DNA of 64,000 bases from Candidatus Peribacteria bacterium (GTDB lineage Bacteria > Patescibacteriota > Gracilibacteria > Peribacterales > Peribacteraceae): the NCBI GenBank assembly GCA_023038255.1, contig CP082927.1:510146-574145 (forward strand), given 5' to 3'. The notes under the pieces were generated by a model. The model had not been told where the DNA came from, searched no databases, and worked only from the letters and a program-made list of their open reading frames with translations. The position numbers were made by a program, and so were the translations under genes. Below are positions 13,290 to 52,627 of this stretch, in pieces; position 1 is the stretch's first letter; each line of letters starts with the position of its first letter.

Positions 13290-14426
13290 ATGTCAAAGCG
13301 CCTCTTTCTGATCGCCGTGCTTGTCTTAACTGTCGGGTTCTTCACGCGCGCTTTTGCCTTTGCACAGGATATGCAGGTTGCTGACCAAACCCAGCCTCTG
13401 ACTCGCGCAGAAGCCGTTGCGCTCCTTATAAATGCCCATCCGAACGGTTTGGAGCGTGTTCGTTGGTTTGCCGCCCATATGCCGCCTATGCCGCTTTTTG
13501 CGGATACAACGCAAACGGAATGGTATGCACCGTATCTGGAAGCTGCATTTGAAAGCGGTTTGATTGAAGGAAACGCAGTTGATCCGCAGTTTCACCCAGA
13601 TGAGCCCTTAAAGGAGGAAGAAGCCATCAGTTTGGCTATCCGTTACAAGGAAATGACAAACCCGTCCGCAGAGGCATATCTCGTCATTCCGACGGATCAG
13701 GGCAATATCCTGAATAAAACCGTCTCCGAGGCCCAGGCAAACGGCATCAAAATGCCTTTCCCGATCCGTCCGGGGCAGCCCATTTCCCGCATTGCCCTCT
13801 ACGACATGATGGCCTCTGCTGGCGTCCAGAACCCTCAGGGCATCACAATTGCCCGTATCCCGGTCACGACAGAATTCATCACCGTCGCCTCCGTCCAGCC
13901 TATTCTGCAGCCTACAACATCCACTCAGAACCCGAATCCTCTGACTGCAGACCTCACTGCCGGAGAGACACCGGATAGCGCAGACGAGAACACCTATTTC
14001 GCCATCAGCATGCCGACACTCGGCGTCGAAGACCTCCTCATCAGCCATCCGACAGACCTTACCCATAACGGCCTTCTCGTTCCGCTCCAGACCGGTGTCG
14101 GACACTTGTTCAGCTATCCGGGTCAGAACGGAAAAATCCTCGTCTACGGACACAGTAGCAGTTATCCGTGGGATACATCCGAATTCACCAAGATCTTCCG
14201 CCAGATCAATAAACTGCAGGTTGGTGAGAGAGTGTACGTGAACTACCACGGCACCGTGTACATTTACGAAGTGACCAACAAGCAGACCGTTCCCGCAAAC
14301 GACACGAGCGCCTACGCTCAGGAAGGAAAAGAAGAACTGATCCTCTATACATGCTGGCCGCCTGACAGCGTGAAGCAGCGGTACCTCGTGCATGCGAAGC
14401 TGGTGGAGGTTGTGGCGCAGAAGTAA
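13290..14426 (+). CDS. Sortase with N-terminal SLH-like module
   Basis: The 378-residue protein has a signal peptide or anchor (residues 1-26, LFLIAVLVLTVGFFTRAFAFA) and an S-layer-homology-like region (about 36-125: LTRAEAVALL, TEWYAPYLEAAFESGLIEG, FHPDEPLKEEEA). After a Thr/Pro linker comes a sortase domain (about 240-378) with catalytic His in LVYGHSSSYPW, Cys in LILYTCWPP and Arg in KQRYLVHAK. Sortases are cysteine transpeptidases that attach proteins to the cell surface or to pili. SLH modules hold proteins at the wall, so this enzyme probably sits outside the membrane. No sorting-signal substrate was obvious in the window. A strong promoter lies just upstream. Confidence 0.9.
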   Translation: MSKRLFLIAVLVLTVGFFTRAFAFAQDMQVADQTQPLTRAEAVALLINAHPNGLERVRWFAAHMPPMPLFADTTQTEWYAPYLEAAFESGLIEGNAVDPQFHPDEPLKEEEAISLAIRYKEMTNPSAEAYLVIPTDQGNILNKTVSEAQANGIKMPFPIRPGQPISRIALYDMMASAGVQNPQGITIARIPVTTEFITVASVQPILQPTTSTQNPNPLTADLTAGETPDSADENTYFAISMPTLGVEDLLISHPTDLTHNGLLVPLQTGVGHLFSYPGQNGKILVYGHSSSYPWDTSEFTKIFRQINKLQVGERVYVNYHGTVYIYEVTNKQTVPANDTSAYAQEGKEELILYTCWPPDSVKQRYLVHAKLVEVVAQK

Positions 14427-43144: not shown

Positions 43145-43723
43145 TCAGGGGATAACAGGTGATTTCTGAAGGAGTGGACGTACCCAGACCAGGTACACCA
43201 TGATCGATTCCATGAGCAAAAACCCGATCGGTTGGCTTGCGCCCGCAAGAGTCCAGGACGGAATGGCAATGACCTGCAGAACGCAGGAGACAAGCTGAAT
43301 CAGCCACGTCACCTTATTTTCATGCAGGGGGTTCTTCCAGGCAGAGACAAAGGTCGGAATGCACCCGATGAACATCACGCTGATATTCAGAAAAATACTG
43401 AGCGTTGCGTCGCCGGAAAATGTCCAGAGCAGAAGCCCGATCACTGCGCCTGCCACGCAGACAATATCCAGTGCTTTCCATCCGGATGTGCCGCGCACAA
43501 AGGCGAGGGTTGCAATGATGCCGGATCCTGCAGTTGCACCGATCATCTGTCCGCTCAAAACATCTTTTGAAAGCATGCCTGCAATCGTGATGATGTCGAG
43601 CGTCGCAAAAATCAGCCACGACGAGAGAACGGGCTTTGTTGTTCCTTTCAGAATCGAGTGGATGTATGGAATGTATCCAACGACATAGAGAATGCCTGCG
43701 GTCAGCGAGAGAAGCGCGGTCAT
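43145..43723 (-). CDS. Small multi-pass membrane protein with PQ-loop-like repeats
   Basis: From ATG at 43723, 6 nt after the upstream gene's stop, the protein has 192 residues and about six or seven membrane helices. Two similar blocks, GYIPYIHSILKGTTKPVLSS (about 17-36) and FIGCIPTFVSAWKNPLHENK (about 120-139), resemble the PQ-loop repeat of SWEET/cystinosin-type carriers with Pro in a helix. Transport of a small solute is possible, but the family call is only from pattern. It is transcribed with the caspase-like lipoprotein gene upstream. Confidence 0.65.
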   Translation of the reverse strand: MTALLSLTAGILYVVGYIPYIHSILKGTTKPVLSSWLIFATLDIITIAGMLSKDVLSGQMIGATAGSGIIATLAFVRGTSGWKALDIVCVAGAVIGLLLWTFSGDATLSIFLNISVMFIGCIPTFVSAWKNPLHENKVTWLIQLVSCVLQVIAIPSWTLAGASQPIGFLLMESIMVYLVWVRPLLQKSPVIP

Positions 43724-43728
43724 GATAG

Positions 43729-44820
43729 TTATTGCTGCATCTGCAGAATATTCCACGTCAGAATCGCCATGTCACCGCGTGAATACCACCTCTTGTGCGT
43801 GAAGTCATGTGTGAGGAGATTGTTCTGGGCGGCAAAATAAATTTCCCCATCATACGCTGTTGCAGACTTTTTGACCGGAGCGTTTACCGTCTCCAGTAAA
43901 AGTTTGAGTGCTGATGTATTGCGTACCAGTCCGGTCTCCGGATCGGCAAGCGTCTCGGTCTCACATGCAGCTTTTGGATTGATCACTTTGCAAAATGCCC
44001 GGGCATCTGCCGGAGTGATGGATTGGTAGGGAAAGAACGATGACCCCGTTCCCATATAGAGTCCGCGCTTCGTAAGCGCTGCAACGGCAGTATATGATTC
44101 CATCGACTGATGCACATCATCATAATACGCGCCGTTTGCAGGAGATGCGTCCAGTGTGATAAATCCTTTGTCGGAGAATGTTGGAATCATATACAGCGAT
44201 TCATCAATGAGTTTAGCCGGCAATTTTTCCAGCGTGCGTTCGTCTTTCTGAAACGAAAATTCCGTGGGTCCGGTTGATGCTCTGACTTTTGTACGGAAAT
44301 GATTTGCAAATTGCTCCGCAAAGGAATCGAGTCCGGGATCAGTTTGTGCAACGTTGCAGCCGTAAAAAAGTGCCGTGCTACCGGTTGCAAACAGTGTGCG
44401 TGGAAGATCATAAATGGATGCTGCGCGGAAACGTGCATTGATGATGGGATCATTCGCATACAATCCGCCATTAATATGCGGCGCCTGATTCACGTATAAT
44501 CCGACGGCATTGCCATGGCCGAAATACACGAACGACTCAATCGTTCCATGCTTTTTTCCAAACTCCCGCATCGCCCTTATAAACTCATCACCGTCATGCA
44601 CGGTAAATTTCTCACCGCCGTGTTCTTTCACATATGTGTCTGCAGCATACTGAAATAAATACCCCGATGTCCCGCCCTCGCCGACGATCACGAGCGGAGG
44701 AATGCCGCTTTTGAGTGTTGCTTCCGGAACGGCTGGGTGTCCCTCTTCTGATTTGTCATTCAATAAAACACAGCCCGTTGCAATAAGAAGAAGACCGATG
44801 CACAGGCTGCGGTAGTTCAC
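43729..44820 (-). CDS. Lipoprotein with caspase-like (clan CD) domain and SLH-like modules
   Basis: GTG at 44820 starts a 363-residue protein whose signal peptide ends in a lipobox (LLLIATGC, Cys17), so it should be lipid-anchored outside the membrane. The region about 40-215 looks like a clan CD / DUF4347-type fold: strand then His in ESFVYFGHGNAVGLYVN (about 94-110) and strand then Cys in TALFYGCNVAQTD (about 148-160). The C-terminal third carries SLH-like segments: YYDDVHQSMESYTAVAALTK with a following FFPYQSITPADARAFC, and a second ending HKRWYSRGDMAILTWNIL. Peptidase activity is a prediction from the His/Cys pair. A small membrane protein gene follows in the same unit. Confidence 0.72.
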   Translation of the reverse strand: MNYRSLCIGLLLIATGCVLLNDKSEEGHPAVPEATLKSGIPPLVIVGEGGTSGYLFQYAADTYVKEHGGEKFTVHDGDEFIRAMREFGKKHGTIESFVYFGHGNAVGLYVNQAPHINGGLYANDPIINARFRAASIYDLPRTLFATGSTALFYGCNVAQTDPGLDSFAEQFANHFRTKVRASTGPTEFSFQKDERTLEKLPAKLIDESLYMIPTFSDKGFITLDASPANGAYYDDVHQSMESYTAVAALTKRGLYMGTGSSFFPYQSITPADARAFCKVINPKAACETETLADPETGLVRNTSALKLLLETVNAPVKKSATAYDGEIYFAAQNNLLTHDFTHKRWYSRGDMAILTWNILQMQQ

Positions 44821-44852: not shown

Positions 44853-45128
44853 TCAATGATCTGGATGTATTATTTGAGGATCAGACTTCTGGAGCAAATG
44901 ATTTTTTCGGAAAGTGACGCCTGATCCGGACTTAAGATATTTTTCGAAAGCTATTGCCTGAGCTTTTTCTCTAAAACAACAAAACCATTCCACCTTCCAC
45001 GGCCTTCCTATTTTAGTTGAAGAAACATTTCCGATGTTATGTTCTTCTAATCTGGCATTAAGATCTTCTGTATAGCCTACATAGTTTCTTTGCCGTTCAT
45101 TTTTAAGTATGTATACAAAATAACGCAT
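44853..45128 (-). CDS. GIY-YIG domain endonuclease (small, stand-alone)
   Basis: The 91-residue protein matches the compact UvrC/YhbQ-like GIY-YIG family: FVYILKNERQRNYVGYTEDL (GIY-YIG as VYI and YVG) with RLEEHN and the C-terminal helix AIAFEKYLKSGSG. The catalytic Tyr, Arg and Glu (EKYLK) positions are present. Such small proteins are common in Patescibacteria and often sit in mobile or accessory spots. The gene is AT-richer than its neighbours and lies between a lipoprotein gene and tRNA-His in a gap with degenerate repeats, suggesting acquisition. Confidence 0.88.
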   Translation of the reverse strand: MRYFVYILKNERQRNYVGYTEDLNARLEEHNIGNVSSTKIGRPWKVEWFCCFREKAQAIAFEKYLKSGSGVTFRKNHLLQKSDPQIIHPDH

Positions 45129-45436: not shown

Positions 45437-48004
45437 TTACGATTGGCCTCCCTGAGGCTTATCCAGGCTTTCCGCTCTAATAATCGCAATCGGCGTATCG
45501 GCGGGTTTTTGCGGTGGGGTTGCAGGCAGAACAGGAGGTTTGATCTCCGGAACGGCCTGTTGCTGGATTGGAGCCTGCACAGGGGCGATAGGCTGGATAG
45601 GTGCTACCGGAACTGACTGAGCTGCGGGTGCCGCTATAGGAGCGGGAACCGGAGGAGTCTGAACAACTGGCGGCGTGACAGGTTTTGGCAGGACCGGAGG
45701 TGTCACAACTGGAGTGGGAGGAGCGACTGGTGCTGGCTTCGGAGTTTGGATTGGCTGTGGAACTGCAACAGGTGCTGTTGGCTTTGGAACAGCAGGGGCT
45801 ACCGGTGCCACAGGATTTTGTACTGGAGCAGAAGGCGTGCTTGCTGGAGCTGTCGGCAAGACAGGAGGCATCACGACAGGTTTCGGAGCTGGTGTCGGAG
45901 TAGTCACAGGAACCGGTGGCTTTGGTGTCACAACCGGGGCAGGTGTTTGCTGTGGAGCAGGTGTGGGTACCGGAGCTGGTTTTGGAACAGGGGGAACAAT
46001 CGGAGATGGTGTCGTTGCAACAGTTGTGGTGGGAGTCGGAACGACAGCAGGTGTTGGCTTTGCAACAGGTTGAGTGACAGGAGTTGTCGGAAGAACAGGA
46101 GGCTTCACAGGTGCAGTTGTCGGCATCGACGGAGCAACTGGAGCTGGCTTAGGGGCCGGCGCAACAACAGGAGTCGGAGGCGTCACAGGAGCTTTGACCG
46201 GCGCTGGGGTCGGCGTTTGCTGCGGAGCTGGTGCTGCTGGTGTTGGAACAGCAGCAGCAACTGCAGGCTGTGCAACGACAGGAGGCTTGGGCACAACCGG
46301 AGCGGGTGTCGGTACAGGGGTAGCAACCGGTGCAGGTTTTGGAGCAGCAGGAACATCAGGCTTTGACGGTGTTGCAGCAGGAGTTGCAGGAGGCGTCTGC
46401 AGCCATGACGGTGTGGGAGCTGTCGGAGTCGTTGCTGGTGCGGGTGTAGAGGCGGGTGTCGGTGCTGGAGTTGGTGCGGCAACAGGAGCAGGTTTCGCAG
46501 CAGCTGGTGTTGAAACGGCAGCTGGAGCCGGTGTTGCAGGCTTCGGTGCAGAATCCAGTCCTTTCTTCAGCCACTCTGGTGCAGCTTTTTCATCAATGCG
46601 CGGAGTGGCGGCAGGTGTCGGTGCACTGGCAGCGTTTTCTTCACGGATGGAAATGTCTTCTTTCGTCGGCACTGCAGGAGCAGGAGTTTTCACAACCTGC
46701 GTGGCAGTTGCCGGAATCACGAGAGCGGGAGGATTCTTTGCATCTTCCTCTTTTGCAACGATTGTTTTCTCCATGTCTGCAAATGTCTGATCCAGAGATT
46801 TTCCGCCGCGCAGTTTGCCAAGCAGGAATACGGCACCCAGACCAAGCACAACAAAGAGTGCAAAAATTCCAAGACCGATCAGGATGGACATGACAGGCAG
46901 GCCGGACAGGAATGATTCTCCGGACGGGGTACTCGTTTCACTGGATGCAGCACTTGCGGGCATGCCGCCAGCACCCTGAATCGTAATCTGCTGTTGGTCA
47001 ACTGCGACATCCTGACCATCAATCAGGTTTTTTACTTTCAGTGTGACGGTGTACACGCCATCTGCTGCATACGTATGCGCCGGGTTCATGATGAGACTTT
47101 CCTGACCGTCACCGAATGTCCAGGTGTAAAGGAGTGATGTCGACGTTGTTGCAGCATTGCCGGACACTGCTTCAAACGTGACAGCACCGTTTCCGGTCGG
47201 TGTGCTCTTGATGCGGATAGGGCTGACAACAATATTCTGCTGCTGTGCGTACTCCGTTGTGAACGTCTCAATATTCTGCACGCGTGCTGCGCCATCCGTT
47301 CCGACAGCAATGACAGACAGCATGCGGCTGGTGATCGGTTCTGCAAACCAGACGTAGAGTGGTTCAGCGTAAAGCTGGAAAAATGTCCCCTGATTCTCCA
47401 CGTCATTCGATGCATTGCCGTCTCCATCTGCATCAACGTTTACATTCAGATCCAGCGAGAGAGGTTTGAGTTCCGGATTGATAGGCGAGAGTTTCAGAAG
47501 CTGCTGACCGGTCCGCAAAATCACGCGCTCGTTCGTGTCCATCGGCGGATCGAGACGGACGAGGCCTGTCAGGTTTGCGTTGCTGCCGCTCTGTACCGAC
47601 GGCTGTCCTGTCACAATATTTCCTGCCGTGCGTGCTTTTGCGCTGATGACAAATGTGCGCAATACACTTCTCTGGCCGTCACCCGATTTGATTTCTGCAA
47701 TAAGCGAATATGTTCCCGGCTGGATGAAACGGTAGCGGAACATGCTCGTGCGTGCTGCCTGCAGGAACGTGCGGTCTTGTGTGAGGATCCAGGAATACAC
47801 AGGATCAGAAAAAGAATGCGAAGGAAGCACTTCCAGAATATCCCCGACAACGAGGCTGATCTGTTCTGAGCCGGTATCCGCAGAGACAGTCCCGGCCTGC
47901 GCGTCCATCATCAGTGTGTCCTGTGCACCGGCAATACCGATCTGCAAACAGAGTAATGATGTCATCAAGATTCCCGATACTGTGCGCTTGAATGTGTGCA
48001 TCAT
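45437..48004 (-). CDS. PKD-domain membrane protein with very long Pro/Ala/Thr-rich tail
   Basis: The 855-residue protein has a signal peptide (SGILMTSLLCLQIGIAGAQ), strand-rich extracellular domains (about 30-290), a PKD-type domain (about 290-345: LLYTWTFGDGQESLIMNPAH, TYAADGVYTVTLKVKN), and a membrane helix (about 372-395). The remaining ~450 residues are mostly Pro/Ala/Thr/Val with PAPVPTP- and PPVLP-type repeats. If the signal peptide is cleaved, this tail would be cytoplasmic, which is unusual for proline-rich stalks. The start overlaps the pilin stop as ATGATG/TGA, so the two genes are translationally coupled. Function: perhaps a structural partner of the type IV secretion pilin. Translation of so many Pro runs would need EF-P. 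Confidence 0.8.
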   Translation of the reverse strand: MMHTFKRTVSGILMTSLLCLQIGIAGAQDTLMMDAQAGTVSADTGSEQISLVVGDILEVLPSHSFSDPVYSWILTQDRTFLQAARTSMFRYRFIQPGTYSLIAEIKSGDGQRSVLRTFVISAKARTAGNIVTGQPSVQSGSNANLTGLVRLDPPMDTNERVILRTGQQLLKLSPINPELKPLSLDLNVNVDADGDGNASNDVENQGTFFQLYAEPLYVWFAEPITSRMLSVIAVGTDGAARVQNIETFTTEYAQQQNIVVSPIRIKSTPTGNGAVTFEAVSGNAATTSTSLLYTWTFGDGQESLIMNPAHTYAADGVYTVTLKVKNLIDGQDVAVDQQQITIQGAGGMPASAASSETSTPSGESFLSGLPVMSILIGLGIFALFVVLGLGAVFLLGKLRGGKSLDQTFADMEKTIVAKEEDAKNPPALVIPATATQVVKTPAPAVPTKEDISIREENAASAPTPAATPRIDEKAAPEWLKKGLDSAPKPATPAPAAVSTPAAAKPAPVAAPTPAPTPASTPAPATTPTAPTPSWLQTPPATPAATPSKPDVPAAPKPAPVATPVPTPAPVVPKPPVVAQPAVAAAVPTPAAPAPQQTPTPAPVKAPVTPPTPVVAPAPKPAPVAPSMPTTAPVKPPVLPTTPVTQPVAKPTPAVVPTPTTTVATTPSPIVPPVPKPAPVPTPAPQQTPAPVVTPKPPVPVTTPTPAPKPVVMPPVLPTAPASTPSAPVQNPVAPVAPAVPKPTAPVAVPQPIQTPKPAPVAPPTPVVTPPVLPKPVTPPVVQTPPVPAPIAAPAAQSVPVAPIQPIAPVQAPIQQQAVPEIKPPVLPATPPQKPADTPIAIIRAESLDKPQGGQS

Positions 48005-51550: not shown

Positions 51551-52627
51551 ATGCATCGCATCTCCCTCTTCATAGTTGCCCTGCTGCTTCCGGCTGTGAC
51601 ATTCGCACAAAGTTCGGCCGTGCCCATCAGCCGGTACGATGCGTTTGAATATGTCTGGAACAGTCTGCACCGTGCTGTCGGAAACACATCAGAAACACCG
51701 TATACCGATGTGCCGTCGAGTGACCCGATGTATAAAACAATCCGCTTCGCAAAATCCAGAAATATTCTCGGCGACTTTGAAACATTCCGTCCCGATGATT
51801 CACTCGATGTCATAACCGCCCTCATCTGGCTCTTCCGTTCCAGAAATATTGCGGACCCGGAAGAGATCACCGAAGAGACGCTGCCGGAATTTCTGACGGA
51901 ATATCAGATCGCGCGTCTGCCGGAAGAAGGCGAACCCGTGCCGGAACTGACGGAATCTCAATTCCTTTTCATGATGCAGTCTCTGGATGAACAGCTCGCG
52001 ACGACACCGCGGGAAATGAGTCTGTACAGCGAAAAATTCCATGGGAAGGGGACGGCGTTCGGTGAGTCATTCGACATGTACGCCATGACGGCTGCCAATA
52101 AATATCTGCCGCACAACACGCTCGTACTTGTGACCAATGTCGATAACGGAAAAAGTGTGACCGTGCGCATCAATGACCGCGGACCGTATGTGGAAGACCG
52201 GTACATGGATCTGAGTCTCGGTGCATTCACCACTATTGCTGACCGGTCGAAAGGCGTCATCCACGCAACCATGCAGAGACTCGGTGATGTGAATATTGTC
52301 GGACCGTGCGTGCAGCCGCCAGTGCTTCAGAAGCGTATTACACGTGATGTCATTCTGGCTCCCGGTCTTCCGCGCATTGTGCACATGGGAACCGAGCTCA
52401 CACTCAGCGCCAACAAATCATTCGTTGTCCGCAGTGTTGTCTATCCCGACGGATTTGTGTCCTCCATGCAAAACTGGATTCTTCCGGACGAAACATTCAC
52501 GCTCAAGCCTTCCATGCTTGGGGATTACACGTTCCATTTGAGCTCTGCAAACGGGCGTAATCGTGAGATGACGATGAAGGTGGTGGATTGTGCGGATGCT
52601 GCTGAATCGTCTGAAGGTGCTCAATAA
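51551..52627 (+). CDS. RlpA-like double-psi beta-barrel protein with SLH-like N-terminus
   Basis: The 358-residue secreted protein has a signal peptide (MHRISLFIVALLLPAVTFAQ), an SLH-like region (about 24-110: ISRYDAFEYVWNSL, YTDVPSSDPMYKTIRFAKSR, FRPDDSLDVITALIWLF), then an RlpA double-psi barrel (about 155-240: LYSEKFHGKGTAFGESFDMY, MTAANKYLPHNTLVLVTNVDNG, VRINDRGPYVEDRYMDLS), the latter with the conserved DRGP and DLS motifs. RlpA proteins cleave or bind denuded glycan strands. A third part (about 270-355) is strand-rich. It may hold to the wall through the SLH-like part. Confidence 0.87.
   Translation: MHRISLFIVALLLPAVTFAQSSAVPISRYDAFEYVWNSLHRAVGNTSETPYTDVPSSDPMYKTIRFAKSRNILGDFETFRPDDSLDVITALIWLFRSRNIADPEEITEETLPEFLTEYQIARLPEEGEPVPELTESQFLFMMQSLDEQLATTPREMSLYSEKFHGKGTAFGESFDMYAMTAANKYLPHNTLVLVTNVDNGKSVTVRINDRGPYVEDRYMDLSLGAFTTIADRSKGVIHATMQRLGDVNIVGPCVQPPVLQKRITRDVILAPGLPRIVHMGTELTLSANKSFVVRSVVYPDGFVSSMQNWILPDETFTLKPSMLGDYTFHLSSANGRNREMTMKVVDCADAAESSEGAQ

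Follow-up and report, generated by a model that had tools for sequence, protein, structure and literature searches.

The gene at positions 43729–44820, on the minus strand of the window (the whole stretch of 64,000 nucleotides that was analysed), is an open reading frame with a GTG start in a closed genome of 1.24 Mb. It encodes a predicted lipoprotein of 363 amino acids with a DUF4347/C80-like domain and SLH modules. From the N-terminus, the protein consists of a signal peptide and lipobox-like sequence (residues 1–17, 44770–44820, minus strand), a caspase-like core domain (residues ~40–215, 44176–44703, minus strand), and a C-terminal part with one clear SLH module (residues 232–273, 44002–44127, minus strand) and one degenerate SLH module (residues ~318–352, 43765–43869, minus strand). 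A small, secreted protein from an ultra-small bacterium not yet in culture, in which a caspase-like domain is joined to a surface-holding SLH module, is a believable new combination of known parts. The preliminary description had already read the gene as a lipoprotein with a caspase-like His/Cys domain, a suggested link to DUF4347 and SLH-like segments; these elements hold, and the PQ-loop-like gene that it placed in the same unit is not a conserved partner.

That neighbour, a PQ-loop-like membrane protein that is not part of the system, lies at 43145–43723 on the minus strand. Its start is probably the ATG at 43723, six bases past the stop of the lipoprotein gene, since in alignments its homologs mostly begin at about residues 10–16 of the longer reading. 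The gene does follow directly, as had been described. Homologs occur, however, in 19 of the 70 genomes of the order, and 17 of these 19 have no SLH-lipoprotein gene; one genome that has both (G036) carries them on different contigs. An operon acting as a functional unit was thus rejected, as the pairing is not conserved. The PQ-loop-like protein itself has no Pfam match over the cut-off and several paralogs in the order. Just upstream of the lipoprotein gene, at 44853–45128 (minus strand), is a short protein with a GIY-YIG endonuclease domain, and at 45437–48004 (minus strand) a protein of 855 residues in which a PKD domain and a transmembrane segment are joined to a very long tail rich in Pro and Ala.

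Across the 353 genomes searched in the class there are six full-length members, the window protein included, with pairwise identities of 35–55%. The other five are at loci L001 (genome G036), L006 (G077), L032 (G601), L033 (G615) and L034 (G602). Full-length members were confined to this class in evenly drawn samples comprising 380 genomes of the phylum. The family is rare and patchy, a pattern that loss or horizontal transfer would fit alike. The neighbours of the five other loci are unrelated, with none shared among them, so a dedicated toxin–immunity or secretion context was rejected; likewise, no conserved partner, immunity or secretion gene was found around the family members. Among viral contigs, 31 stretches fitted a pattern, none of which encodes a relative; the whole protein had no match on plasmids, only chance-level matches in PHROGs and no match in PADLOC, and its sole NCBIfam match, to a beta-lactamase, was dismissed as meaningless. 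Conservation within the family is concentrated in the core, where 29% of the columns are invariant in the six members, against 19% in the SLH part, 11% in the segment joining the two, and 3% in the N-terminus.

The lipobox that had been noticed in the window protein is present as IATGC, residues 13–17, ending at Cys17. It needs a correction as regards the family: a PROSITE-style lipobox pattern is matched by three of the six members (the window protein and two orthologs) and is not matched by the other three, and the lipobox Cys is accordingly not invariant. The same genome encodes LspA and two Lgt-like proteins, so the window protein has both a lipobox and the genes expected of a bacterial lipoprotein, with the lipobox unconserved in half of its family.

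The core is linked to DUF4347 by several comparisons. For the window protein Pfam lists a single family, DUF4347 (PF14252; E = 0.00045), at 20.5 bits against a cut-off of 24.6. Four further members also match it below the cut-off, which no member reaches (21.9 bits in the G036 protein, lower in the others). Because the cut-off is not reached, we call the core a divergent relative of DUF4347. As a yardstick, eleven true DUF4347 domains were taken from cyanobacterial and proteobacterial plasmid records. When aligned to these by hhalign, the six-member core gave a probability of 93.6 and a score of 51, with the HG and GC positions aligned and conserved; 100 column-shuffled controls scored no more than 27.7, and the reversed alignment 13.4. 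In an alignment of 18 sequences (the six members, two proteins of the class near or over the DUF4347 cut-off, and ten DUF4347 domains), full invariance is limited to the columns of His102, Gly103, Cys155, Val179 and Ala181. At E values of up to 10, Pfam gave no match of the window protein to Peptidase_C80 (PF11713), and hence no direct similarity to that family; C80 is the second Pfam match of two canonical DUF4347 domains, weakly so (E = 0.012 and 0.099). The preliminary description had pointed to caspase, gingipain and DUF4347 folds for comparison. The DUF4347 link is borne out by the hhalign score, but neither caspase C14 nor gingipain C25 is listed for the window protein in Pfam at E up to 10. 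Judged by sequence, residues ~40–215 are a divergent DUF4347/C80-like domain, which forms a branch within the caspase-like (clan CD) cysteine peptidases, and the closest known relatives are DUF4347 and C80 rather than caspases or gingipains.

The putative catalytic residues are His102 in FGHG (44515–44517, minus strand) and Cys155 in YGCN (44356–44358, minus strand). Conservation of this His and Cys was one of the points on which the caspase-like reading could have failed, and both are invariant in all six members, at a constant spacing of 53 residues. His102 is the sole invariant His among nine or more in the window protein, and Cys155 is the sole invariant Cys of the core; the remaining invariant Cys residues, Cys277 and Cys286, belong to the SLH part. 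The other His residues are variable, as are the Cys residues of the N-terminus. A glycine-rich loop after β1, GEGGTSG (residues 47–53, 44662–44682, minus strand), has G47, G49, G50 and S52 invariant in the six members.

The connection to a solved structure was made with sequence profiles. A profile of Patescibacteria sequences of the class only, A9, had as its best PDB match 9qpe_G, a “DUF4347 domain-containing protein”, over the whole domain (E = 0.025), with the Gly-rich loop, the His and the Cys aligned. With rows of true DUF4347 domains added, the profile reached 9qpe_G at E = 2.8e-4; a PDB search with the profile of the six members by itself did not recover 9QPE. The entry, a cryo-EM structure of Tce1, is cited in a study of PA0256/Tce1 in complex with Hcp3 (PMC13323088), and PA0256 carries DUF4347 (PMC8262886). 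The residues of 9qpe_G aligned to His102 and Cys155 are chain positions 77 and 131. With residue 110 as the first of the chain, which the resolved range implies, these would be His186 and Cys240 of Tce1. The authors of the Tce1 study matched His186 and Cys240 to the dyad of a C80 peptidase, and for Tce2 they report that toxicity in yeast is relieved by mutating the predicted active site (PMC13323088).

Structure prediction by AF2 was run on two-row alignments only, with four distant orthologs left out. Its confidence was low for the full-length protein (pLDDT 41) and better for the core (pLDDT 63.5, pTM 0.67). The models have the strand order β1-α-β2-α-β3-His … β4-Cys-α-β5, and each dyad residue directly follows a predicted strand (β3, residues 94–100; β4, residues 144–153), which agrees with the earlier observation that the dyad comes after hydrophobic strands. 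The clan CD dyad has been described at the ends of β3 and β4 (PMC4357240). The predicted strand order and dyad position match that description, with His102 and Cys155 at the C-terminal ends of β3 and β4, although the strand positions come from a model of low-to-moderate confidence.

Foldseek searches with both of these low-to-moderate-confidence models returned mainly Rossmann-type or unrelated folds, and the best matches of both were short-chain dehydrogenases, whose glycine loop resembles GGTSG. That the core is an oxidoreductase-like Rossmann fold in which GEGGTSG serves as nucleotide loop is nevertheless highly improbable: the Foldseek TM values are about 0.4 or less with nothing below E 0.001, sequence profiles match no dehydrogenase at E values up to 10, no YxxxK is conserved in the six-member alignment, and a similar GxSG loop is found in 9qpe_G, a solved structure that is not a dehydrogenase, where GDSGSAF partly matches the loop. 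Since Foldseek is uninformative here, the claim of a fold rests on the homology to 9QPE and DUF4347.

The SLH-like segments reported for the C-terminus comprise one clear module and one degenerate one. Module 1, compared by hhalign with 19 SLH domains taken from its own genome, has a probability of 95.9 and a score of 46.6, with 60 shuffles scoring 20.9 at most. Module 2 corresponds to a second hhalign alignment, whose score of 24.0 is just over that shuffle maximum, and many further proteins in the class match the C-terminal stretch containing it. In Pfam, one ortholog passes the cut-off for SLH (PF00395; 21.8 versus 20.8 bits), while the window copy, at 14.3 bits, is below it. The best PDB match of the full-length profile is the S-layer protein Sap. 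Between the modules, Cys277 and Cys286 (43963–43992, minus strand), both invariant in the six members, would probably form a disulfide. Across the genome there are 46 SLH matches, mostly over or near the cut-off, and a CsaB-type pyruvyl transferase is encoded as well. Given these genes, together with those for LspA and the Lgt-like proteins, lipidation and wall binding would be possible, and extracellular anchoring of the protein is plausible. Within the window, further SLH-domain proteins are encoded at 13290–14426 and 51551–52627 (both plus strand), with SLH matches at about 13497–13628 and 51698–51802.

As the likeliest reading, we propose that the protein is a cysteine peptidase of the DUF4347/C80 type at the cell surface. 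The best explanation, which we regard as reasonably probable, is an exported clan CD peptidase, held at the surface, that would cut envelope or nearby extracellular proteins. The protein would leave the cell by Sec, would probably carry a lipid at Cys17, and would be kept on the outer surface by that lipid and by its C-terminal SLH modules, which may bind a pyruvylated wall polymer. In the divergent peptidase domain, Cys155 would be the nucleophile and His102 the general base, and the cleavage targets may be proteins of the envelope or of its surroundings. The preliminary description had likewise suggested a wall-bound cysteine peptidase acting outside the cell; for this, the SLH part and the lipobox make the anchoring plausible, and from homology we infer the peptidase activity of the core. 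The idea, also from that description, that it acts on partner or host-cell proteins found no support in the analysis, which turned up no substrate. A narrower version, in which Peribacteria and other ultra-small bacteria related to them display on the S-layer a dedicated caspase-like protease of the DUF4347/C80 type that trims proteins of a partner cell or of their own S-layer, we hold to be unlikely.

If the dyad cut only its own chain, it would free the domain from the lipid or from the SLH anchor. C80 is an autoprocessing family found in large toxins (PMC4357240), self-processing has been proposed for large surface proteins with caspase-like domains (PMC3482391), and the segment between the core and the SLH part, with its 11% of invariant columns, is the least conserved besides the N-terminus. 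However, that segment has no conserved cleavage-site motif in the six-member alignment, and nothing lies downstream as cargo except the SLH part; we consider self-processing rather unlikely. It is also conceivable that the caspase-like fold is non-catalytic and serves the S-layer as a module for binding or for structure, since caspase-like repeats without catalytic residues exist in some bacterial secreted proteins, where they may only bind peptides (PMC3482391), and the SLH part points to a surface structure. We find this quite unlikely: His102 and Cys155 are invariant, while the remaining His residues and the Cys residues near the N-terminus are not.

The proposed surface-held peptidase can be set beside several known systems. 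It resembles DUF4347 proteins, including Tce1/PA0256 (9QPE), in the order of strands, in HG after β3, GC after β4 and V.A after β5, and Tce1 in particular in the dyad spacing (53 here, 54 in Tce1) and in a GxSG..F loop. It differs in being a small SLH lipoprotein rather than a large repeat protein or an injected effector, in a long conserved insert between the His and the Cys (GLYVNQ...YANDP), and in its score below the Pfam cut-off. With C80 of clan CD it shares the His/Cys dyad at the ends of β3 and β4, but it has no C80 match, is not within a large toxin, and gives no support for ligand activation. Gingipains (C25), clostripains (C11) and caspases (C14) have the same clan CD order, a His and then a Cys after successive strands, yet no similarity to them is detectable by Pfam. 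Like SLH-domain surface proteins (PF00395), of which the same genome has many, it carries C-terminal SLH modules; unlike them, it has one clear and one degenerate module, a conserved Cys pair and an enzyme-like cargo.

What is new, therefore, is the placement of a known domain in an SLH-lipoprotein architecture, and no paper describing this form of a DUF4347-like domain was found in the literature searched. DUF4347 was a label without a function until the recent effector structure, and here the same dyad occurs in a compact, surface-anchored form, in bacteria with small gene sets that may rely on other cells. A domain of 176 residues with two testable residues opens the question of whether the DUF4347 domains of large surface proteins are active peptidases. 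If true, the surface-protease reading would mean that the cell surface reuses a domain whose other reported settings are large secreted proteins and injected effectors. Two other proteins of the class carry related cores. One (L062:13-2364, genome G574) has a weak RHS-repeat match and a DUF4347 match over the Pfam cut-off (25.9 bits), a layout that resembles a polymorphic toxin. The other (L063:1402-3330, minus strand, genome G667) is a long protein with a DUF4347-like core at its end (GGHG ... SCST ... V.AP..PT), which hhalign aligns with the SLH-lipoprotein family at 86%.
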